The notes beneath the pieces are model-generated. The model was not told the DNA's origin, did not search any database, and saw nothing but the letters and a program-made list of their open reading frames with translations. Below are positions 2,410-15,403 of a stretch of 22,224 nucleotides of DNA, one piece after another. The translations under genes were made by a program, and so were the position numbers. The stretch is from a virus. Positions within the stretch are counted from its first letter, which is position 1; every line of letters starts with the position of its first letter. The DNA lies in the IMG/VR virus record IMGVR_UViG_3300006735_000297, positions 1-22,224 of that record; one strand, given 5' to 3'.

Positions 2410-2589
2410 TTAGTGGCCAGCGAGCTTTTTGCCCCTCTTTGCGTTCATATATGTCCTTGTGTTCTTGGCGTTTTTTCTTTTATCTTTCACAGTTTTCTCA
2501 TATTCGTAATAGTGAGTCACTTTATGGTTTAATTCACTTAAATAATTAGAAAACTCATCGATTGTCATATTTATTGCATTCTTTTCCAC
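2410..2589 (-). CDS. Small basic protein, GTG start, 59 aa
   Basis: The GTG at 2589-2587 overlaps the polymerase stop codon by one base (TAGTG), and a clear GGAGGT lies nine bases upstream inside the polymerase gene. The frame runs 59 codons to TAA. The N-terminal half is acidic to neutral (DEFSNYLSELNHK), the C-terminal half strongly basic (TVKDKRKNAKNTR, KRGKKLAGH), which suits nucleic-acid contact. An internal ATG at codon 8 would give 52 aa but has a poorer SD. The family is not identified. It is the last gene of the chain that begins with the methyltransferase. Confidence 0.6.
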   Translation of the reverse strand: MEKNAINMTIDEFSNYLSELNHKVTHYYEYEKTVKDKRKNAKNTRTYMNAKRGKKLAGH

Positions 2590-4472
2590 TATATCTGTAC
2601 CTCCTTTGCATCACCCCAACTTGGTCCAAGATCAACATCCACTTTGCTAGGCACGTGCATCTCTACGCAAGTCTCCATAATTTCTTTTATCTTGTTAATT
2701 TGCTCTGGCGAGTTCACAGAAAAATCTAATTCATCATGCACTTGAATATGAGGGGTTATACCCTCTTCATACAACACCTTCATTGCCATCTTAGTCATAT
2801 CCGCAGCTGAACCCTGAATTAATCTATTCATCGCCTTATATGTAAATGCACGTTTAATACCGCCCATACCATACTCTGCAAAAGCAGTCTTATGATCCAT
2901 AATCTTACGACTACCGAACTGATTCGGTTCCCACTTATCGAAGCGACACCTCCGGCCTAACAGCGTTCTAATACTACCTTGTTGAGAGGCTCTCTGAGTT
3001 GCACGGTCGGCTAACGCTTTAACAAAAGGAACACGGTCATGATACTTAGCAAAAAGTTCTTTACCCTCTTCGAGAGTGAGACCAAGCTCTCTGGAAAGTT
3101 TAGTAACACCCATAGAATAAAACAAACCAAGGTTAATGTTCTTAGCTTGCTTACGCGGTATGTCAGCCATGTCTGCAACTATTTGGTGGAAATCTGCGTC
3201 TTTATTCTTAAGAGCCTCTACAGCCTCGTCTGCGCCCCTTAAACCCATTAAAGAAGCATAGTGGACTACGATCCGTGGCTCTTGCTGTGAGTAGTCAAAA
3301 GCCCCCCACTCACATCCTTCTTCAGGTATAAACAACGACCTTATTGCCTGACCTATTTCAGGGTCTCTAGCAGGAACCTGTTGTAAGTTTGGATTACTAT
3401 AACTAAACCGCCCAGTTACTGTCCCACCGTCGTCAGAGCGTAAAGGATGAAGCTCAGCATGTATTCGACCATTAATTTGGTTTGACATAATCATTCCATC
3501 AATGAACGTAGTCCTTGCTTTATTCATCTTTCTAGCTTTAACAATCATCTTGGGTACTTCATGTTGGTGATTCTCTAGCCATGTTTGTTGAAATGATGGT
3601 GCGCCAAGTTCTGTGCGTGGGAACTCGATCCCTAATTTGTTGAATGCTTTTTCGATAGAAGCATTAGCCCAGATCTCTACTTCTTCGCCACATGCTGACT
3701 TTATATGATGAAGGGCGTCCTCCTCCTTGGCTCTAAATCCTTTTGATAATTTTGCTGTTTTATCTAAGTCTACTCGAACACCGTCCCAACGCATATCTAT
3801 GAGCAAAGGAGTAATCCCAGATTCAAGATCAAAGATCGACCATAAGTCTTGTCGGGTCATCTCTGTCTTCTGCCAATCCCAAAGTTTAAGAGTTAGGAGA
3901 GCATCTTGTTCTGCGTATGGACCAACATACATAGGCGGAAGATGATGTAATCCTCCTTTAGCGTCTACGTTCCATGCTTCAGCGGCATCCCTAAGTAAGC
4001 TCTCATCTTTCCGTTCCTTTAAATATTCTTTACCGAGAGCGTTTAAAGCATAACTAAATCTATTTTCATCAATTAATGGAGCAGCAACCATAGTATCAAT
4101 TATTTTATTACCATGAAGTTTGATACCCTCTCGTCGCATCCAACCGATATCATAAGAAGCATTATGACAAATAATATCTGAGCCGCCTTTGATCTGATCT
4201 TGTAACCAGTTTTTGATTAACGTCTTATCAAGGTTGCCTCCTGCCTCATGAGCTACGGGTAAATACCCAGACCAAGATTCTGTAGCTACGGCATAGCCTA
4301 CAACATGGCCTTCTCCTCTTGCCCATCCAGCACCTTTTTCCCTAAGAGAAGGATCATGCGTTTCTAGGTCAATACAAATTTCTTTAGCCTTAGAAAGATC
4401 AGGTAAAAGCTCAGGAGGTGTCCACGAACTATCAGGACTAAACAATGGTTGTTGTAAAGGATTCTTTGGCAT
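2589..4472 (-). CDS. polA: Family A DNA polymerase with 3'-5' exonuclease
   Basis: Replicative phage DNA polymerase of the PolA type. Numbering here starts 26 residues earlier, at codon 4550. Exonuclease motifs: D61/E63 (IDLET), N130/D134 (HNASYD), Y212/D216 (YAEQD). Polymerase motif A is AFDYSQQEPR (D419), motif B runs from R466 and K470 to Y478, motif C is VHDE (H605, D606). The residue matching E. coli F762 is Leu474; Y766 is kept (Y478) and G767 is Ser. There is no 5'-nuclease domain, as usual in phages. The preferred start is ATG 4472 (MPKNPLQQPLF), with AAGGGAAAG upstream; earlier ATG starts at 4550 and 4520 are possible, the latter overlapping the previous stop by eight bases. It is the penultimate gene of a coupled chain. 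Confidence 0.93.
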   Translation of the reverse strand: MPKNPLQQPLFSPDSSWTPPELLPDLSKAKEICIDLETHDPSLREKGAGWARGEGHVVGYAVATESWSGYLPVAHEAGGNLDKTLIKNWLQDQIKGGSDIICHNASYDIGWMRREGIKLHGNKIIDTMVAAPLIDENRFSYALNALGKEYLKERKDESLLRDAAEAWNVDAKGGLHHLPPMYVGPYAEQDALLTLKLWDWQKTEMTRQDLWSIFDLESGITPLLIDMRWDGVRVDLDKTAKLSKGFRAKEEDALHHIKSACGEEVEIWANASIEKAFNKLGIEFPRTELGAPSFQQTWLENHQHEVPKMIVKARKMNKARTTFIDGMIMSNQINGRIHAELHPLRSDDGGTVTGRFSYSNPNLQQVPARDPEIGQAIRSLFIPEEGCEWGAFDYSQQEPRIVVHYASLMGLRGADEAVEALKNKDADFHQIVADMADIPRKQAKNINLGLFYSMGVTKLSRELGLTLEEGKELFAKYHDRVPFVKALADRATQRASQQGSIRTLLGRRCRFDKWEPNQFGSRKIMDHKTAFAEYGMGGIKRAFTYKAMNRLIQGSAADMTKMAMKVLYEEGITPHIQVHDELDFSVNSPEQINKIKEIMETCVEMHVPSKVDVDLGPSWGDAKEVQI

Positions 4473-4512
4473 AGTTTTCTTTCCCTTTTGTTTGGGAGAG
4501 TTTACTATGTTA

Positions 4513-4875
4513 TTAGTCATCCTGACTAGCCCTATTACACATTTCTGCATCTATTAGAAAGAGATAGCGTCTAAGGTCTCGTATATCGTCGAGGATGCCC
4601 TCTTCTCTTTGGTCAGCCTCCATAGCTGCGAAGACGTCGTAGTTATGGTTCTCAACCTGTTTTTCTAACCGATCCCATTTACGAGCCGCCATCATAAACG
4701 CACCTATACCGCCACGTTTTTTCCAACTGTCGCCATAAGACTGCTCGGCTTTATGAAGCTCATCTGGATCTTCTATACTAAGCTCCTGAACAGTGCTTAT
4801 AGTCTTAGAACGTCTATCTTCTAATTCTTGCGTCTTCATATATTCTTCGTGTCTCATCTTTTTCTTTCTAGCCAT
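4513..4875 (-). CDS. DUF1599-like phage protein, 120 aa
   Basis: A soluble, mostly helical protein with the sequence 'SYGDSWKKRGGIGAFMMAARKWDRLE' at residues 46-71 in two parts (SYGDSWKKRG, then GIGAFMMAARKWDRLE) and 'GILDDIRDLRRYLFLIDAEM' at 93-112. From memory, the 'SWKKRGGxGAFMMxARKWDRLE ... DIRDLRRYLLLxEAEM' pattern marks a phage family near DUF1599; the precise family is not certain. It sits between the TS-family gene (21 to 22-base overlap) and the polymerase. A role in nucleotide or modified-base metabolism is guilt by association only. The start is ATG 4875, preceded by GGAGAAAGG; a TTG at 4896 in frame is less likely. Confidence 0.65.
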   Translation of the reverse strand: MARKKKMRHEEYMKTQELEDRRSKTISTVQELSIEDPDELHKAEQSYGDSWKKRGGIGAFMMAARKWDRLEKQVENHNYDVFAAMEADQREEGILDDIRDLRRYLFLIDAEMCNRASQDD

Positions 4876-5837
4876 TCTACACACACCTTTCTCCAATCGG
4901 TTGCTTTTATAGTTTTAGCCATGTCTATGGCCTCAGAAAGCAATCCTTCTTTATACAGCCACCATGCTTCTACCATAGGCATAGCAGTTTTATTAAACAC
5001 AGAGTTTTTATAATCAAACCCAAAGTGGTCTCCTTCATGTAGCCACTCAAAAAATAAAGCCATTTCAATATCAAACCTATCTGGGTTATCTACCAGAGGT
5101 GATGGTTTAACTACTGAAGTTTCATAAAAGCAGCCGATTATACCTTTCGGTAATTTAAGATCTAATGGATCCCAAACTTCTTTATAGATATGAGCGTTAT
5201 TACTTACTTGATAATACTTACCTATCTTCATACCAACCATACTTGCTACATATTCTTGTACCATACTAAAGTGAACAGCATTCGCCCCATACATACCCCA
5301 GATCATATCGTTAGAGCGATTAGTAACCGTCATGTCTAAAGCATCGTTTACACATCTAAAATAAACTTGAGTATTACAAGGCACATCTTTAGAGTCTGAG
5401 CCAAGGTCTCTGAACGGATCCCACATTTGTAATACGATACGTCGATCTAATGGATTTTGTTTTAATAAATCTATAACTTTAGAAAGCTGGTCTCTACCAA
5501 ACCATTCTCGCCAACGATAGCCGTATGCTCCGTTAACATGCTCTCCATCATCAGAAAAGTCTGCCATCTTCTTAGCGAACATAGTCAAAGTTCCAAGGTC
5601 GTCACGACCCTCGATCATCCATAAGCCTTCAATAAAATGGAAAAAAGGATTACAGTTACGTTCTGGAGAAAATAAAACACGTTCATCAGGATATTTATAA
5701 ACACTTGTAACAGGCGTAGGGAAACTTAACACTTCTCCATTACGAGAGTCTTGCGCAAGTAAACTTTCTGGACTTCTAAAACTCATTGTAGCTATTTGAA
5801 ACAGCTCATTAACATTTCTACCTGATATTACTTTCAT
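4854..5837 (-). CDS. Thymidylate synthase family enzyme (TS or dUMP hydroxymethylase)
   Basis: Thymidylate-synthase fold, 327 aa (E. coli ThyA has 264). Family landmarks: HFIEGLWMIEG (E70, W73), NGAYGYRWR, the NPLDRR phosphate loop (R132-R133), catalytic Cys154 in VPCNTQ, RSND (174-177), a G-x4-N site (N186) and NNAHIY (H216, Y218). ThyA normally has PCH at the catalytic site; here it is PCN. The loop before N186 has one extra residue compared with GLPFN. The enzyme methylates or hydroxymethylates dUMP with a folate cofactor; the sequence cannot decide which. The next gene upstream resembles a DNA base-hypermodification protein, which favours 5-hydroxymethyl-dUMP. ATG 5837 overlaps that gene by four bases (ATGA). 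Confidence 0.88.
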   Translation of the reverse strand: MKVISGRNVNELFQIATMSFRSPESLLAQDSRNGEVLSFPTPVTSVYKYPDERVLFSPERNCNPFFHFIEGLWMIEGRDDLGTLTMFAKKMADFSDDGEHVNGAYGYRWREWFGRDQLSKVIDLLKQNPLDRRIVLQMWDPFRDLGSDSKDVPCNTQVYFRCVNDALDMTVTNRSNDMIWGMYGANAVHFSMVQEYVASMVGMKIGKYYQVSNNAHIYKEVWDPLDLKLPKGIIGCFYETSVVKPSPLVDNPDRFDIEMALFFEWLHEGDHFGFDYKNSVFNKTAMPMVEAWWLYKEGLLSEAIDMAKTIKATDWRKVCVEWLERKR

Positions 5838-6658
5838 GGGTATCTCCCCCTCGGTGCGCCCTCTCCATTACGGACACGCTCATACTTATCGAACTCACAT
5901 AAGCTATGCTCGATATCTCTCATTTCTAATTTAGGAAATCCTTCACTAAGATATTCTGAAGAGAACTTAAGAAGCTCAAGCATTTCTTCGTTCCAATCGT
6001 GCTTTCTACTTGTATAATTTAATTCTCTACCATATATGCGGTTAAGACCTCTCATGGCTCCTGGACCAGCATTTGCCCAAGTATAGATATCTTTAGCCTC
6101 GTTTAGAAGATATGTGTGTCGTAGGTCAGTAATTATTTCATACGACATGAATGGACCTTGGTACGGAAATTGCATAACAACATGCCAAGAGCGGTGAAGA
6201 CTACTATCTTTCAACTCGTTAATGAGGTTATCACGTTGTTCCCACATTTGATCAATGCACCATATAATCCCATCAACTTTATCCATTCCGTTTGGAGACT
6301 TAATTATATAACCTCCAGTTATATATTTTTGTTGTTTCTTTATCTCCTGACGCGCCAACTCTGGCTTCCAATCTACATGGAGATTGTTAGACAAAAGAGT
6401 CTCACCTGTTTCGATAAGATTAAACCATCGGAATATTATCGTAGCCATCAAGACCTCAGATCGGTTCTTCAATGGGTCTCGCATATTTTCCCTAAACCAA
6501 ATGGTTGTTTTGTCGTTTTCTCTAAATGGATTTGTAAAGCGATATGATTTTAAGATTTCGTCTTTAGTCCAGTCGTCGCGAGAGATACCAGCATTCCTTC
6601 TTCGAAAAATGCGGTGTCTCTCCTCGATCCACCAGAAGAACCTTTCAACAGGCTCCAT
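5834..6658 (-). CDS. DNA base hypermodification protein (HMUDK helical / aGPT-Pplase-like)
   Basis: 274 aa. Signature segments: EERHRIFRRR (12-21), SYRFTNPFRENDKTT (38-52), YQGPFMSYEIITDLRHT (166-182), TWANAGPGAMRGLNRIYG (193-210), and EMRDIEHSLCEFDKYERV (245-262) followed by GEGAPRG. I recognise this order as the helical, DNA-glycosylase-like family that includes the helical domain of 5-hydroxymethyl-dU DNA kinase and the aGPT-Pplase/amino-acid:DNA transferase group in hypermodified-thymine phages. No Walker A P-loop is present, so it is not itself a P-loop kinase. It probably acts on modified thymine in DNA. Its start shares one base with the methyltransferase stop (TAATG) and its end overlaps the TS-family gene by four bases. 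Family assignment is from memory; the reaction is inferred. Confidence 0.8.
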   Translation of the reverse strand: MEPVERFFWWIEERHRIFRRRNAGISRDDWTKDEILKSYRFTNPFRENDKTTIWFRENMRDPLKNRSEVLMATIIFRWFNLIETGETLLSNNLHVDWKPELARQEIKKQQKYITGGYIIKSPNGMDKVDGIIWCIDQMWEQRDNLINELKDSSLHRSWHVVMQFPYQGPFMSYEIITDLRHTYLLNEAKDIYTWANAGPGAMRGLNRIYGRELNYTSRKHDWNEEMLELLKFSSEYLSEGFPKLEMRDIEHSLCEFDKYERVRNGEGAPRGRYP

Positions 6659-7497
6659 TACTTCTTCCTCATAATCCAGTTTACATTATTAGCTGTTTCT
6701 GGATAAGCAGTAGCAAGGATAACTCTTTGCCAATGTTTATCGAAACGACCCTGAATATCATCAATCACATGCTGTGGCCAACGAGCAGTAGCACGATGGT
6801 TGTTTTTAAAATTATTCATTTGGGTAAACGTGCCGTAATGTCTTTCGATAACGAAGTATTTTTCGAGGAGTTCTTTGAGTTCTTGATACCCCCACTCGTA
6901 GACGTGGTCTTTTGGGAGGATATCGTTTGATCCGTCGTGGTTCGGCGTCGAGACATACGCAACGCCCCCTGTACGGAGTTTACGTGAGGCGGCTTCGATC
7001 CATGGCTCAATGAACTCTCTCCCCATATGCTCAATAACTTCAGTTGTCATAAATACATCTATAGACTCGTCCTCGACAGGAGGTTCAGGATCAAGAGTTA
7101 AATCTTGAAGGACGATACGACCTTTTCCCCCTGACATAGTTTGAAACCATTTATGTTCGTCGACAGGAAGATTATCGTCCACCCACCAGTCGTCAAGGCA
7201 AGCCGGATCAATATCCATGCCCGTGTAGCTGTTTACGATCTCGGCCTTACGAGATACGAACGCCTTATATAAATAACGTAGAGTCCAAACTTCCCCACAT
7301 CCTATTTCTAAGATATCCACAGGGCGACCAAGTTGTTTAGCCCTGCCCATAATTATCTGTCCCATTTTACAGAACCTAGATATATGAGCCAATTCATCAG
7401 GACGCCAGTTAGCCAATGTACCAGCACTAGCTATATCCATACGAGTGTTTTTTGAATTATTTGCGTTTACCGCAAGTTTCTTTCTAATAGATGCCAT
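6658..7497 (-). CDS. Class I SAM-dependent methyltransferase
   Basis: Rossmann-fold methyltransferase, 279 aa. Motif I is DILEIGCGEVW (61-71); an acidic loop GMDIDPACLDDW (93-104) follows and should hold the SAM ribose. The later strand and helix are DVFMTTEVIEHM (147-158), then LRTGGVAYVSTPN (174-186). The C-terminal part (EWGYQELKELLEKYFVIERH) is typical of this family's lid. There is no DPPY or PC motif, so this is not a usual adenine or C5-cytosine DNA methyltransferase. The substrate is unknown. As first gene of the coupled chain with the hypermodification and TS-family genes, it might methylate a modified base, nucleotide or side chain. AAAGGAG lies seven bases before the ATG. Confidence 0.85.
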   Translation of the reverse strand: MASIRKKLAVNANNSKNTRMDIASAGTLANWRPDELAHISRFCKMGQIIMGRAKQLGRPVDILEIGCGEVWTLRYLYKAFVSRKAEIVNSYTGMDIDPACLDDWWVDDNLPVDEHKWFQTMSGGKGRIVLQDLTLDPEPPVEDESIDVFMTTEVIEHMGREFIEPWIEAASRKLRTGGVAYVSTPNHDGSNDILPKDHVYEWGYQELKELLEKYFVIERHYGTFTQMNNFKNNHRATARWPQHVIDDIQGRFDKHWQRVILATAYPETANNVNWIMRKK

Positions 7498-7605: not shown

Positions 7606-8085
7606 CTAGCTAAGAATACGGATGTATCCTTTGTCGACCATCTCACGATGATAGTGTTTATAGATTTTATCTACAGATTGTTTAGTTATGAGAACAGGTT
7701 CTAACTTTTCCCATAAAAGACCTATGGTTGTAGAGCCTTGAAAATCTTTATCTAAGACGTTTAGGATAGCCATCATTTGAGGCGCACCTTTTTCAGGATA
7801 TTTAACAAACTCCACCCTTGTGTTTACTTTTAAACGTCCTGTATTAGAACGACCCTGCGCTCTTAACATTTCTGTCCTGCGAGATTCGGCATTACTCATA
7901 GCCGCTTCTTTATCAAGCATAGCCACATGCTTTTGACCTTTATTATTAAACTGATCTGGTTCCATAATTAACTTTCCCTTATGAAATTTAGATTTGTATT
8001 TATGACGAGGAAACTTCTCCTGTTCACCAAAATCGTGGTCAGGAGACCACTGCCATGCGTCATGAGCTGTCTGTATCCATCCCAT
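7606..8085 (-). CDS. Hypothetical protein, 159 aa
   Basis: Not recognised. Residues 1-60 are rich in W, H and K (AHDAWQWSPDHDF, KFPRHKYKSKFHKG) and look disordered or nucleic-acid-binding. Residues about 60-90 form a charged helix. The C-terminal 60 residues have helix-turn-strand spacing (TTIGLLWEKLEPVLITKQSV, then IYKHYHREMVDKGYIRIL) that could be a winged helix, a guess from pattern only. The gene follows the helicase after a 68-base gap with repeats and precedes the methyltransferase after a 108-base gap. GAGGAG lies about nine bases before the ATG. Confidence 0.6.
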   Translation of the reverse strand: MGWIQTAHDAWQWSPDHDFGEQEKFPRHKYKSKFHKGKLIMEPDQFNNKGQKHVAMLDKEAAMSNAESRRTEMLRAQGRSNTGRLKVNTRVEFVKYPEKGAPQMMAILNVLDKDFQGSTTIGLLWEKLEPVLITKQSVDKIYKHYHREMVDKGYIRILS

Positions 8086-8153: not shown

Positions 8154-9656
8154 CTACAAGGGAAAATATTTATTGGTCATCGGCTGTACGATATGCAAAT
8201 TTTGTTTAGCTCTAGTTAATCCTACATAAAATACACGAGTATCATCGTCAGGATGTTTTTCATATTCTTTCCAAGTGCGGTGAGGAATATCAGTAAGTAA
8301 CAAAACATTGTCTGCTTCACCACCTTTAGCAGAGTGTATAGTAGATAGTTTAACGCGAGGTGTTTTAGTTATCTTCTCACCCCTACGAAGCATCGAAAGA
8401 ATATAACTTCTCTCTGCAGGGCTTATGGCATCAAACATGTCGTGCCAGATCAAAGGCTCACCAATGGAGGCTTTTTGCAAGACTTCCGCCAGAGTGAGCT
8501 TCTCGTCTTGCGGAGTATCTTCGAGTATCTTCTTTTTCGAACTTTTGATGTACGAAACAGCTGAAACCGCCTGTTCGGGATAAAGAGTGTATCCTTTTCG
8601 TAATTGTTCCCAGTTTTTAACGGCATTTATTTTCTTTTCAGAAATAGAGGGGTTTTCCTTACGCTCAAAATATACACCAAGACTGCGACAATGTGCGTCT
8701 ATTTCATTTAACAAATAATTAGACCGTGATAATATTAACCACTGCCCAGAAAGGAGATCAACATGCTCGAAACTTGCTTCGCTAATGACCTGTCCTTTTT
8801 CACTTCGGGGCTTCCAAGTTTTATTTGTTCTTGTCTTAACACGTCTTATCACTCTGTCGGCTATCTCATGGACGGAACTAGGGATGCGGTAACTTTGATC
8901 CAAAACTCTAGCATTCCCTTTACTTATAGAAACGAGATGATCCACGTCTGCCCCTGCCCATCTAAAAATAGCTTGATCATCATCTCCGGCAATATAGACT
9001 CTCTCCGAGTTTTGTGCCAATACATTTACTAGCTTCCACTGTAAAGGACTAAGATCTTGAGCTTCGTCTATGAACATAACTTCTAGTTTCGGAGACAATT
9101 CTTTTTCTACACAAAGTGAAAGCATGTCTGTGAAATCTAAAAGACCTCTCGCTTTTTTAAATTGTTGTAACCCCTTAGAAAATCTCTCTAATACGTGCCA
9201 ATCAACATCCTCGTCATAATGCTGATGCCATTGCTGTCTTAACTCTACGTTTCTTAAACGAGATAAACCTTCTATAAATCTAAGCCTATCATCTTTAGAT
9301 AGCATAGATATAGACCCCTCCTCCATTTTTGAATCACCAGTAAGACGCATACCCATTATATCGCTGAACTCACGATACTGTGGACCGTTCATAACGCCCT
9401 GACGAGAGAGACCTAACATCTTATAACAAAGAGAATGCAGCGTTCTAAAATTTGGTAATTCTTTTTCGTCTAAACCAAACCTATCTATCGTTCTCTCTCG
9501 TCCTTCTTTAGAGGCTTTTTTAGTGAAGGCAAAGTAGCCTATTCGATCAGGCGGAGTACCCTGCTCCATCTCCATTTCTATAAGGTTCAATATTGTTGTT
9601 GTCTTGCCTGTTCCAGGAGGACCAAGGATAATCGACCATGTGCTGGGGTCTTCCAT
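8154..9656 (-). CDS. UvrD/Rep-type superfamily 1 DNA helicase
   Basis: 500-aa SF1A helicase with the motifs in order: Walker A GPPGTGKT (12-19), motif Ia-like AFTKKASKEGRERT (43-56), Walker B IDEAQD (196-201), motif III AGDDDQAIFRWAGAD (223-237), motif IV DQSYR (253-257), motif V STIHSAKG near residue 438, and motif VI FYVGLTRAKQNLHIV near residue 475. It is shorter than cellular UvrD (about 720 aa) and lacks much of the 1B/2B regions. Such helicases act at forks or in recombination and repair. The ATG at 9656 shares one base with the primase stop (TAATG), so primase and helicase are coupled. Confidence 0.92.
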   Translation of the reverse strand: MEDPSTWSIILGPPGTGKTTTILNLIEMEMEQGTPPDRIGYFAFTKKASKEGRERTIDRFGLDEKELPNFRTLHSLCYKMLGLSRQGVMNGPQYREFSDIMGMRLTGDSKMEEGSISMLSKDDRLRFIEGLSRLRNVELRQQWHQHYDEDVDWHVLERFSKGLQQFKKARGLLDFTDMLSLCVEKELSPKLEVMFIDEAQDLSPLQWKLVNVLAQNSERVYIAGDDDQAIFRWAGADVDHLVSISKGNARVLDQSYRIPSSVHEIADRVIRRVKTRTNKTWKPRSEKGQVISEASFEHVDLLSGQWLILSRSNYLLNEIDAHCRSLGVYFERKENPSISEKKINAVKNWEQLRKGYTLYPEQAVSAVSYIKSSKKKILEDTPQDEKLTLAEVLQKASIGEPLIWHDMFDAISPAERSYILSMLRRGEKITKTPRVKLSTIHSAKGGEADNVLLLTDIPHRTWKEYEKHPDDDTRVFYVGLTRAKQNLHIVQPMTNKYFPL

Positions 9657-13015: not shown

Positions 13016-13105
13016 CGTCATAATCTCATAATGTCATAATTTAGTAGGTAACTCTCTGAAAATATTATTAAACTATCCTATGAGATTAGTTATGAGATTA
13101 TGAGA
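13016..13105. repeat. Inverted clusters of TCATAA repeats
   Basis: Three TCATAA units at an 8-base period (13018-13023, 13026-13031, 13034-13039) face two tandem TTATGAGA units (13090-13105) plus one CTATGAGA (13078-13085). The arms contain a perfect 14-bp inverted repeat: 13018-13031 against 13090-13103. The centre is AT-rich. The cluster covers the gap between the HD-domain gene (whose stop codon is inside it) and the 109-aa gene. It could be an operator, an iteron-like replication origin, or a transcription attenuator. Confidence 0.6.
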
Positions 13106-13676
13106 TAGATAACACGTCGCAAGGCACTTTATGGTCTTTAGAAAATTTATCTGCTAGAAAACCACTATAGGCTTTTATATATTCCTGCACATCTACTGCT
13201 TGTGAAGGATGAAGTTTTAGCAAATCATCGTTTAGTTTTTCACGCACATTTTCAAAAACGTCAATCAATAGTAAATTACCCATATAGATTTGTTCTAAAC
13301 AATAAAACAAAAGCTCAACACGGTCTGCTATTCGTATATATGTTTTTTCTTCATGTTGATCTTTTAAATCTGTAGGCCAACCCATTCTTTCTAAAAACCC
13401 TTCCTCTATCCATTCTAAAGTATCTTGAAGTCCAGGATGTTGCCATTTCACATTAGCAGGAACATCGCCTGTCACTATTTCTGGAACATCGTGACGAAGA
13501 GCGAATACTAAACAACTTCTTGATACACAGGGGAAAAGATCTAATAGGATCATAGCCACGCCCCAACTATGAGCTGCTATATTCTGTTCGTCTCCGTTCA
13601 TAGGTTTTATATGTAACCTACGGATACGTCCTGCCATGCGGTGATTATACACCGCTTCGCTTCGAGAATACTCCAT
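13098..13676 (-). CDS. HD-domain nucleotidase (YfbR-like)
   Basis: 192-aa HD-domain phosphohydrolase. Metal ligands of the superfamily are in place: H36 (IAAHSWGVA), H62-D63 (LRHDVPEIVTGDVPANVKW) and D118 (IRIADRVELL). E66 and D71 of the 'HD..E...GD.P' pattern also match YfbR-type 5'-deoxynucleotidases, which dephosphorylate dNMPs. The basic N-terminus (RRLHIKP) fits substrate phosphate binding. Related HD proteins in modified-DNA phages (for example the DatZ type) remove canonical nucleotides; here the target is unknown. It has its own start region with AAAGGTAGAAAG before the ATG, and lies next to the divergent SNF2-type helicase gene. Confidence 0.85.
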   Translation of the reverse strand: MEYSRSEAVYNHRMAGRIRRLHIKPMNGDEQNIAAHSWGVAMILLDLFPCVSRSCLVFALRHDVPEIVTGDVPANVKWQHPGLQDTLEWIEEGFLERMGWPTDLKDQHEEKTYIRIADRVELLFYCLEQIYMGNLLLIDVFENVREKLNDDLLKLHPSQAVDVQEYIKAYSGFLADKFSKDHKVPCDVLSIS

Positions 13677-13751: not shown

Positions 13752-15197
13752 ATGTATAATTTCAAATTTAAAACGAAACCTTATGACCATCAATTAAAGG
13801 CGTTAGAAAACTCTTGGCAAAAAGAAGAGTTCGCATTGTTGATGGATATGGGTACTGGCAAGTCTAAAGTCTTAATAGATACGATAGCTGCACTTTATGA
13901 CGCAGGTAAAATAGATTCAGCTGTAATTTTTGCTCCGAAAGGGGTATATAAAAATTGGGTAGCTAAAGAGCTTCCTGCGCACATGCCAGAGCATATTGAA
14001 TGTAATATAGCTTATTGGGCTTCGCCTCTTACGGTAGCTCATAAGGACTCTATAAGAGCGATATGGATTCCAAATTATGACCTTCATATATTTGTTATGA
14101 ACATAGAGGCTTTATCCAGCGGTAAAGCAGAAGAGGTCGTAACTAAATTTATTAGAAGTCATCAAGGGAAAACTTTAATCGCTATAGATGAATCTACTGT
14201 TATAAAAAATCATAGTGCTAAAAGAACTAAGGCTTCGATAAGAGTATCTAAAACGGCAAAATATAAACGAATATTAACAGGTTCTCCAATTACTAAATCT
14301 CCTCTAGATCTTTACTCTCAGTTTTTATTCTTAAATGAAGAGCTACTAGGGTTTAGATCTTATTATGCATTCTGTAGTAGATATGCTGACATGGTCAGAA
14401 GAACATCTAGTTCACATAGTTATAATCAAATATTGGGATTTAGAAACTTGGAAGAATTAACCGAATCAATACAGCCTTTTTCTTATAGAGTTACGAAAGA
14501 TGAGTGTTTAGATCTACCTGATAAAAACTATATAAAAAGATCTATAGAACTAACACCCGAACAAAAGAAAATGTACAATCAAATGAAAAAGACTGCTGTA
14601 GCTTTACTGGACGATATGGAAATGGTTACAGCTAACGCAGTGATTACTCAGCTTCTTAGGCTACATCAAATAAGTTGCGGTTTTGTAAACACTGACGACG
14701 GTAATCTTGTTCGTTTTAAAAATAATAGAATGTCAGAATTACTTTCCATACTCGAAGAAGTAGACGGTAAAGTAATCATATGGGCTAATTACCGACACGA
14801 TATTATGGCGATCGAAATGGAACTTGCAAGAGCTTATGGTCCAAGTTCCGTAGCTACTTATTTTGGAGACACAGACGGAGAAGCAAGACAAGATATTGTT
14901 GAGCGTTTTCAAACGAGTGAAGATCTAAGGTTCTTTATAGGACAACCTAGAACTGGTGGATACGGTCTCACGCTTACAGCAGCAAAAACTGTAATTTATT
15001 ATAGTAATAGTTACGATCTTGAAGTAAGGTTGCAATCAGAAGACAGAGCGCACAGAATAGGGCAAACTTCTTCTGTTACCTACATAGACATCGTTGCTGA
15101 AAAAACAGTAGATGAAAAAATAGTTACTGCATTGCGAAAGAAGATAAATATCGCAACACAAGTTCTTGGAGAAAACTGGAAAAAATGGTTGATCTGA
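13752..15197 (+). CDS. SNF2-type superfamily 2 helicase
   Basis: 481-aa SF2 helicase of the SNF2 group. Motifs: Q-like 'YDHQLKALE' (11-19), Walker A MGTGKS (33-38), Walker B IDEST (145-149), motif III TGSP (176-179), and the C-terminal lobe with motif V-like RTGGYGLTLTAAK and motif VI SEDRAHRIGQT. DEST instead of DEAH and no extra domain suit phage-encoded members of roughly 450-500 aa. It might remodel DNA-protein complexes, help recombination or replication start. It is one of only two plus-strand genes and starts with AGGAG upstream of ATG 13752. Its last 13 bases overlap the HTH gene, so both are coupled. Confidence 0.9.
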   Translation: MYNFKFKTKPYDHQLKALENSWQKEEFALLMDMGTGKSKVLIDTIAALYDAGKIDSAVIFAPKGVYKNWVAKELPAHMPEHIECNIAYWASPLTVAHKDSIRAIWIPNYDLHIFVMNIEALSSGKAEEVVTKFIRSHQGKTLIAIDESTVIKNHSAKRTKASIRVSKTAKYKRILTGSPITKSPLDLYSQFLFLNEELLGFRSYYAFCSRYADMVRRTSSSHSYNQILGFRNLEELTESIQPFSYRVTKDECLDLPDKNYIKRSIELTPEQKKMYNQMKKTAVALLDDMEMVTANAVITQLLRLHQISCGFVNTDDGNLVRFKNNRMSELLSILEEVDGKVIIWANYRHDIMAIEMELARAYGPSSVATYFGDTDGEARQDIVERFQTSEDLRFFIGQPRTGGYGLTLTAAKTVIYYSNSYDLEVRLQSEDRAHRIGQTSSVTYIDIVAEKTVDEKIVTALRKKINIATQVLGENWKKWLI

Positions 15198-15403
15198 TTG
15201 AAGAATTTAAGACTTTACGAAAAAAATCTGGTTTAAGTCAAAAACAAGTTACCGATGACACTGGAGTTAGTGTAATCACGGTATATACTTGGGAGGCTAA
15301 ACAGAGACAGCCCACTCTTTCTAATTTTAATAAGGTACTAGAAACAATGGGCTACGAGCTTACTATTCAGCCAAAGACCTCATACGATCCACCAAACGTC
15401 TAG
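15185..15403 (+). CDS. Cro/CI-type helix-turn-helix protein
   Basis: 72-aa protein with an XRE-family HTH: helices at about 3-14 (LIEEFKTLRKKSG), 17-25 (LSQKQVTDD), recognition helix 28-36 (VSVITVYTW), then QRQPTLSNFNKVLETMGYEL. No C-terminal oligomerisation or peptidase domain. It may regulate transcription of the helicase/HD divergent region or an early/late switch. ATG 15185 overlaps the helicase end by 13 bases, with AGAAAAC upstream only a weak SD, so it depends on helicase translation. Its 3' end overlaps the opposite endolysin gene by 41 bases, so the two transcripts are antisense. Confidence 0.85.
   Translation: MVDLIEEFKTLRKKSGLSQKQVTDDTGVSVITVYTWEAKQRQPTLSNFNKVLETMGYELTIQPKTSYDPPNV

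Follow-up and report, generated by a model that had tools for sequence, protein, structure and literature searches.

A kinase-free gene set with a methyltransferase for probable hydroxymethyluracil modification in an HTVC023P-type phage

Introduction

In phages M6 and PaMx11 the hypermodification of thymidine runs via phosphorylation of 5-hydroxymethyl-deoxyuridine (5-hmdU). The DNA of M6 contains 5-(2-aminoethyl)-deoxyuridine (dU), which is thought to be derived from 5-hmdU through a kinase (PMC6449724). The M6 pathway comprises gp51, gp52, gp53, the kinase gp54, a protein of the HMUDK_hel family (gp55, this type of protein being called HEL hereafter) and an enzyme of the thymidylate synthase family (gp58, called TS hereafter). 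PaMx11 has gp46, a glycinyltransferase acting on 5-phosphomethyl-dU (5-PmdU), followed by a flavin adenine dinucleotide (FAD) enzyme (gp47), an acetyltransferase (gp48), a kinase (gp49), a HEL (gp50) and a TS (gp51). For clades V, VIII and IX of the HTVC023P-type pelagiphages, a TS and an aG/PT-PPlase1 protein near the DNA polymerase gene have likewise been read as thymidine hypermodification (PMC9599517). Here we describe a related set of three genes, encoding an S-adenosylmethionine (SAM)-dependent methyltransferase (MT), a HEL and a TS, in a stretch of viral DNA of 22,224 nucleotides (positions 1 to 22,224 of IMG/VR record IMGVR_UViG_3300006735_000297), which is referred to as the window.

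The phage of the window, a marine virus of bacteria, probably swaps part of its thymine for hydroxymethyluracil and then caps it, the capping apparently being carried out by the methyltransferase. The reading that thymine is modified is well supported by homology, and is partly published already (PMC9599517); what is new compared with earlier accounts is the methyltransferase and the missing kinase. In the text of that paper the word methyltransferase does not occur, and the passages cited here note neither the missing kinase nor an exchange of the HEL partner.

Results and Discussion

Layout of the cassette and identity of the phage

The three genes lie on the minus strand in the order MT (6658-7497, 279 aa, an open reading frame (ORF) with a Pfam match to class I SAM-dependent methyltransferases), HEL (5834-6658, 274 aa, a stand-alone protein also named 'aGPT-Pplase1') and TS (4854-5837, 327 aa, a predicted dUMP 5-hydroxymethylase). 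MT and HEL share one base (6658) and HEL and TS four (5834-5837), in agreement with the overlaps reported in a sequence-only reading of this DNA. That reading had also placed the set straight upstream of the family A DNA polymerase PolA (2589-4550, minus strand, PF00476 E=5e-63), which has to be corrected as a gene for a small protein of 127 aa (4513-4896, minus strand) intervenes and overlaps both TS and PolA. The 127-aa protein matched no Pfam family; its homologues are found in 60 of 84 loci, it has the conserved motif YGDSW-RRGG-GAFM, and it is a constant companion of HEL-TS within this phage group. Dozens of contigs, with identities reaching down to about 50%, repeat the gene order MT-HEL-TS-127-PolA, hence the cassette is not a chance arrangement.

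Where it overlaps with IMGVR_UViG_3300010148_000041, the window phage shares 99.8-99.9% identity with that record. Its PolA shows 55% identity to that of 023Pt_psg01 and 50% to that of HTVC023P, and TerL of a relative (G003) shows 61% and 56% respectively. On these two proteins the window phage is of the HTVC023P type, and it probably belongs to one of the clades V, VIII and IX, with which it also shares the TS and HEL beside PolA that are described in PMC9599517.

The TS-family enzyme and its substrate

The TS matches PF00303 (E=7e-25) and phrog_5131 (E=1e-104). Given the family name and the annotation of its phage homologues as thymidylate synthase, it might be an ordinary enzyme that boosts dTMP, with HEL and MT as unrelated neighbours. 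We regard this as highly improbable: the similarity to the TS of M6/YuA-type phages is full-length (46% identity over 100% of the length), whereas T4-type td enzymes align to merely 35-40% of it, the score falls under the NCBIfam thymidylate synthase cut-offs, and the His next to the catalytic Cys is replaced by Asn. At the specificity position, within the motif GMYGANAVHFS, the enzyme has an Asn, as do all of the readable HEL-linked TS enzymes in the alignment (121/121). An Asn at the TS Asn177 position is what we take to be the uracil type, and an Asp, as in Asp179 of T4 dCMP hydroxymethylase, the cytosine type. The window TS is thus predicted to be a 5-hydroxymethylase of dUMP and not of dCMP, and the assignment of this gene to the hypermodification type made in the sequence-only reading is supported at the sequence level.

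The HEL protein

HEL matches PF18723 (HMUDK_hel) over residues 4-265 of 274 with E=2.1e-44 (152 bits against a cut-off of 25) as well as phrog_2396 (E=2e-56), which bears out its earlier placement in this hypermodification family; the segments on which that placement had drawn (EERHRIF, SYRFTNPFREND and SLCEFDKYERV) are all located in the 274-aa protein. Among 50 relatives covering all partner types 35 residues are invariant, and EFDKYER lies within the most conserved stretch. The nearest HELs of isolated phages are those of PaMx11 (42.7% identity) and Ab18, those of YuA and M6 (35%) being more distant. Searches for viral relatives of the PaMx11 and LuckyBarnes HELs gave 1 and 2 loci only.

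In order to assess the fold, an AlphaFold2 (AF2) model of HEL was used, with a predicted local distance difference test score (pLDDT) of 95. Its best match in the PDB is the 5-PmdU glycinyltransferase PaMx11 gp46 (probability 0.97), followed by helix-hairpin-helix 8-oxoguanine glycosylases (probability 0.91), and the top eight matches are all either gp46 or DNA glycosylases; by sequence, phmmer found no match for HEL in the PDB. We take these weak matches as a hint of DNA binding and base eversion by HEL. HEL was also compared with the aGPT-Pplase2 or amino acid:DNA transferase family (ADDT, PF18724). Membership in that family is not supported: HEL does not match PF18724, the family is absent from the MT-type records searched, the hhalign profile comparison lent no significant support and the likeness to gp46 is weak. 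Long HEL ORFs in GC-rich loci were considered as fusions and set aside, their extra N-termini appearing to be over-extended starts.

Absence of the 5-hmdU DNA kinase

The window resembles M6 in its homologous HEL and TS, in the place of the set upstream of PolA and in the presence of an HD-domain nucleotidase in the module, and it resembles PaMx11 in having its closest isolated-phage HEL and the same HEL-TS order. In contrast to the window, M6 has a kinase directly upstream of HEL together with an amino acid:DNA transferase (gp51, PF18724), a pyridoxal phosphate (PLP) enzyme and a radical SAM enzyme, and PaMx11 has the gp49 kinase and gp46; in the window the methyltransferase takes the kinase's place. 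Both M6 gp54 and PaMx11 gp49 are P-loop kinases annotated as 'terminase small subunit' directly upstream of HEL; gp54 matches PF18748 (5-hmdU DNA kinase) with E=8e-18 and gp49 weakly, and the two align together and with twelve relatives. Since the kinase of locus L066 escapes PF18748, which is too narrow when used by itself, a profile was built from 14 HEL-linked kinases. In the same search this profile recovered the kinase in 5 of 5 kinase-type control records, while neither it nor PF18748 nor PF18724 gave a match in twelve MT-type records of 31-60 kb, including contigs of 49-60 kb. The records with a glycosyltransferase (GT) as HEL partner that were searched were likewise without a match to the three profiles. 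Neither the gp49 kinase nor gp46 was found in the MT-type phages searched.

The window is a fragment of 22 kb, so that the absence of the kinase is deduced from the contig of locus L002 and from longer relatives. Two contigs of 56 and 60 kb, which rank among the longest of the MT type, contain no P-loop candidates other than the UvrD helicase and one chance motif, and both lack the kinase, the amino acid:DNA transferase and glycosyltransferases. On G003, the contig of 56 kb, genes for the terminase subunits, portal, capsid, tail and lysozyme are present together with those for a primase and the HD nucleotidase; at E<=0.001 its Pfam scan, which covered proteins other than helicases, PolA and MT, showed no kinase, no glycosyltransferase and no tailoring family (radical SAM, PLP, FAD, acetyltransferase). 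Given that the HTVC023P-type genomes in the collection measure 57-61 kb, the 56 and 60 kb contigs are near full length. The HD nucleotidase and a 159-aa protein encoded upstream of MT were also considered as the missing kinase, and were rejected.

In M6 and PaMx11 the homologues of this HEL and TS are accompanied by both the kinase and the amino acid:DNA transferase. This homology would fit an M6-type pathway with an overlooked or host-derived kinase, where phosphorylation of 5-hmdU is followed by the attachment of an amine and the added group is then methylated by MT. The searches above strongly disfavour this pathway, which we judge very unlikely. With the 5-hmdU DNA kinase absent, the window set is not simply the M6-type pathway plus a methyltransferase, and our preferred reading is a kinase-free 5-hmdU cassette.

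Exchange of the HEL partner

HEL loci were gathered largely by their likeness to a small number of HEL and MT query proteins, with flanks of 5-8 kb, and GT labels were given by BLAST to six representatives, two GT-like types being without a Pfam match. The 132 distinct loci comprise 74 with an MT, 36 with a GT, 18 with a kinase and 4 with none of these, and two kinds of partner never occur together. When the partner labels are mapped onto a tree of 73 non-redundant HEL proteins, 10 changes are needed, and the starred branches require at least 2 for MT, at least 5 for GT and at least 3 for the kinase, from which we read that the partner has been exchanged several times in evolution. HEL is therefore not tied to the 5-hmdU DNA kinase, which is new here.

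Besides MT-HEL-TS-127-PolA, as in the window, the locus types include HEL-[CTP_transf/MannoseP_isomer]-GT-like-radical SAM-TS, HEL-GT-like-radical SAM-TS, HEL-FkbM methyltransferase-127-GT-TS-Cas4-like and HEL-TAGT-TS-Cas4-like-127-PolA, where TAGT is the TET-associated glycosyltransferase PF20691; further types carry a kinase. Examples among isolated phages are LuckyBarnes (HEL-GT-GT-TS) and Microbacterium phages with HEL, TS and a glycosyltransferase. The set of the Brevibacterium phage LuckyBarnes (gp38-gp41) is like that of the window in that HEL and TS stand with a non-kinase partner near PolA; it differs in having two glycosyltransferases and no methyltransferase in their place, and in its actinobacterial host.

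The methyltransferase

MT matches PF13489 (E=4e-9) and PF08241 (E=1.5e-6). All of its Pfam matches are to generic families (Methyltransf_23/11/25/12/31), and no N6A, N4C or C5 DNA methyltransferase family was matched in Pfam or NCBIfam; the candidacy of MT as a conventional restriction-modification DNA methyltransferase was rejected on this ground. The AF2 model (pLDDT 79.5) has the Rossmann methyltransferase fold and shows no signature of DNA methyltransferases, its nearest solved folds are class I methyltransferases of the UbiG, TehB and cap types, and sequence searches against the PDB gave chance matches only. In each of the 74 MT-type loci the methyltransferase gene immediately precedes HEL on its upstream side, and its earlier inclusion in the cassette stands. 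In the clade of the window the mean conservation is 87% for MT, 78% for PolA, 69% for HEL and 61% for TS, the high value for MT suggesting strong constraint or recent transfer.

Since the MT fold is near those of small-molecule and cap methyltransferases, MT could be a passenger that acts on RNA, protein or a small molecule, with plain 5-hmdU as the end product and HEL serving replication or protection. Phages with plain 5-hmdU are known, e.g. SP8 (PMC6449724), and the neighbourhood of a 47%-identical MT in locus L119 (L119:4998-5849) contains no HEL and no TS, its contig of 26 kb being devoid of TS altogether. Against this, MT never occurs with a kinase or GT and always abuts HEL, and distant MTs independently neighbour hydroxymethylases; we consider a passenger role unlikely.

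These distant homologues, in AXL3, ctUtU524, L121 and L122, adjoin a TS-family hydroxymethylase and a gene for a deoxynucleoside monophosphate (dNMP)-kinase-like protein, without HEL, and the hydroxymethylases have the Asp of the cytosine type at the specificity position. In the Stenotrophomonas phage AXL3 the set (gp27-gp31) consists of a dCMP deaminase, a TS, a thymidylate kinase, a nucleoside triphosphate pyrophosphatase (NTP-PPase) and the methyltransferase, which is 31% identical to that of the window and likewise stands beside a TS-family hydroxymethylase; the cytosine-type Asp and the lack of HEL set AXL3 apart from the window. AXL3 gp28 (in L084:5851-8993), named 'thymidylate synthase', is the enzyme with this Asp. 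Of 37 restriction enzymes tried on AXL3 DNA, just two cut it, both with A/T-only sites, and it resists the other 35 (PMC7504290), a pattern that fits a modified cytosine. Together, the Asp of gp28 and the published pattern suggest hydroxymethylcytosine-derived DNA in AXL3, which gp31 perhaps methylates. The MT family thus seems to track hydroxymethylated pyrimidines of two kinds and HEL the uracil kind, a correlation with few independent cases on the cytosine side.

The association of these homologues with NTP-PPase, dNMP-kinase-like, hydroxymethylase and dCMP deaminase genes could also mean that MT acts before replication, on 5-hmdUMP or its di- or triphosphate, so that the polymerase inserts the finished base and HEL is otherwise used, e.g. 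as a guard against host glycosylases. However, in the MT-HEL-TS phages MT is coupled to HEL and not to enzymes of the nucleotide pool, and it holds the place of a kinase that acts at the DNA level. We find such pre-replicative methylation quite unlikely.

Proposed pathway and its weight

In the kinase-free cassette that we favour, TS would convert dUMP to 5-hmdUMP, as its homology and residues indicate, and the product, once raised to the triphosphate, would be incorporated by the phage PolA for part of the thymine. HEL, a predicted DNA-glycosylase-like protein by fold and context, would then recognise or evert 5-hmdU in DNA and present it to its partner. Finally, in the place where the M6/PaMx11 kinase phosphorylates the hydroxymethyl group, MT may cap it, as the gene context suggests, O-methylation to 5-(methoxymethyl)-dU being the simplest form of this; no part of the mechanism is less certain than the precise product. 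To our knowledge neither 5-methoxymethyl-dU nor any other methylated 5-hmdU has been described as a DNA base, and none was found in the literature searched.

Several points weigh against this pathway. The fold match of HEL is weak (E 0.2, TM-score about 0.45), and its comparison with 11 ADDT proteins gave an hhalign probability of 3.9%, which is not significant. The substrate of MT is not fixed by its generic fold (UbiG, cap and small-molecule methyltransferases), its target could be a mononucleotide or something else, and its homology to the AXL3 and ctUtU524 enzymes is about 30% only. The 56 and 60 kb contigs show no end repeats, their completeness being judged by gene content and length, and no biochemistry or nucleoside reports turned up for phages of this group. 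On balance, we rate the chance as even that the cassette is kinase-free and that its MT acts on 5-hmdU at the level of DNA. The stronger, joint claim, that the phage DNA contains a methylated 5-hmdU derivative such as 5-methoxymethyl-dU and that HEL is a general module for 5-hmdU in DNA with swapped partners, is possible, and we lean somewhat against it; were HEL such a module with an exchanged partner, the name '5-hmdU DNA kinase helical domain' would be too narrow.

If the pathway is as proposed, the phage DNA holds a base not yet described. Next to the route through phosphorylation known from M6 and PaMx11, the widespread kinase-free marine set predicts a second, direct one that leads to a new methylated base, and in sister phages to new glycosylated bases. 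Furthermore, the HMUDK_hel family gains a testable role, with a constant HEL and a variable partner of three enzyme kinds. In ecological terms, the abundant HTVC023P-type phages may with this set gain protection against restriction in a single, cheap step.

Neighbouring genes and further loci

The HD-domain protein (13098-13676, minus strand) is a YfbR-like 5'-deoxynucleotidase (PF12917 E=5.5e-15; phrog_7076 'dATP triphosphohydrolase' E=3e-17) whose homologue adjoins TS in M6 and PaMx11, and which would possibly clear the competing dTMP/dTTP pool. It is adjoined by 13752-15403 on the opposite strand, where a SNF2-type helicase (481 aa) overlaps a small helix-turn-helix protein. Upstream of MT lies the 159-aa protein (7606-8085, minus strand), possibly a winged-helix protein, without a family match in Pfam or the PHROG profiles and restricted to part of the MT-type loci (26/84). 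The left border of the module is conserved and formed by a UvrD-family helicase (8154-9656, minus strand, PF00580 E=2e-35), found at the same position in nearly all MT-type loci. A second large MT-type clade (L163-L207) has a further conserved ORF, about 73 aa long, between HEL and TS. The L119 MT has a neighbour that reads like a zinc-finger/toprim primase.

Concerning the 127-aa protein, M6 gp61 was ruled out as a relative, gp61 being a DUF3310-like protein. LuckyBarnes gp41 (L127:1825-3378), a TS, has a long C-terminal extension with YGKSWRKRGE...RKIDRL that resembles the 127-aa protein of the window, and is possibly a natural fusion linking both proteins.

In marine phage contigs TAGT (L062:8843-9619 and L241, upstream of HEL) is found beside HEL and TS without a kinase, and by BLAST the TAGT-HEL-TS set also occurs in a Methylobacter-binned contig; it predicts glycosylated 5-hmdU in the DNA of these phages. 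At L035:8831-11704 the genes that come after HEL and before TS encode a fusion of a cytidylyltransferase with a mannose-6-phosphate-isomerase-type cupin, a GT-like protein and a radical SAM/SPASM protein, which has the look of a pathway that builds a nucleotide sugar on site for use on DNA. Two HEL genes per phage, in tandem or close together, are seen at L081:7977-9709 and L071:7905-11391. Outside phages, the chromosome of Hyphomicrobium sp. CS1BSMeth3 (L224:4103-7727; L234:4980-7818) has in a row a gene of the uracil-DNA glycosylase (UDG) superfamily, HEL, TS and a duplicated 127-aa-type protein, adjoining recA-like and other host genes with no adjacent kinase, MT or GT, and HEL-TS-127 is present in a Hyphomonadaceae metagenome-assembled genome as well.

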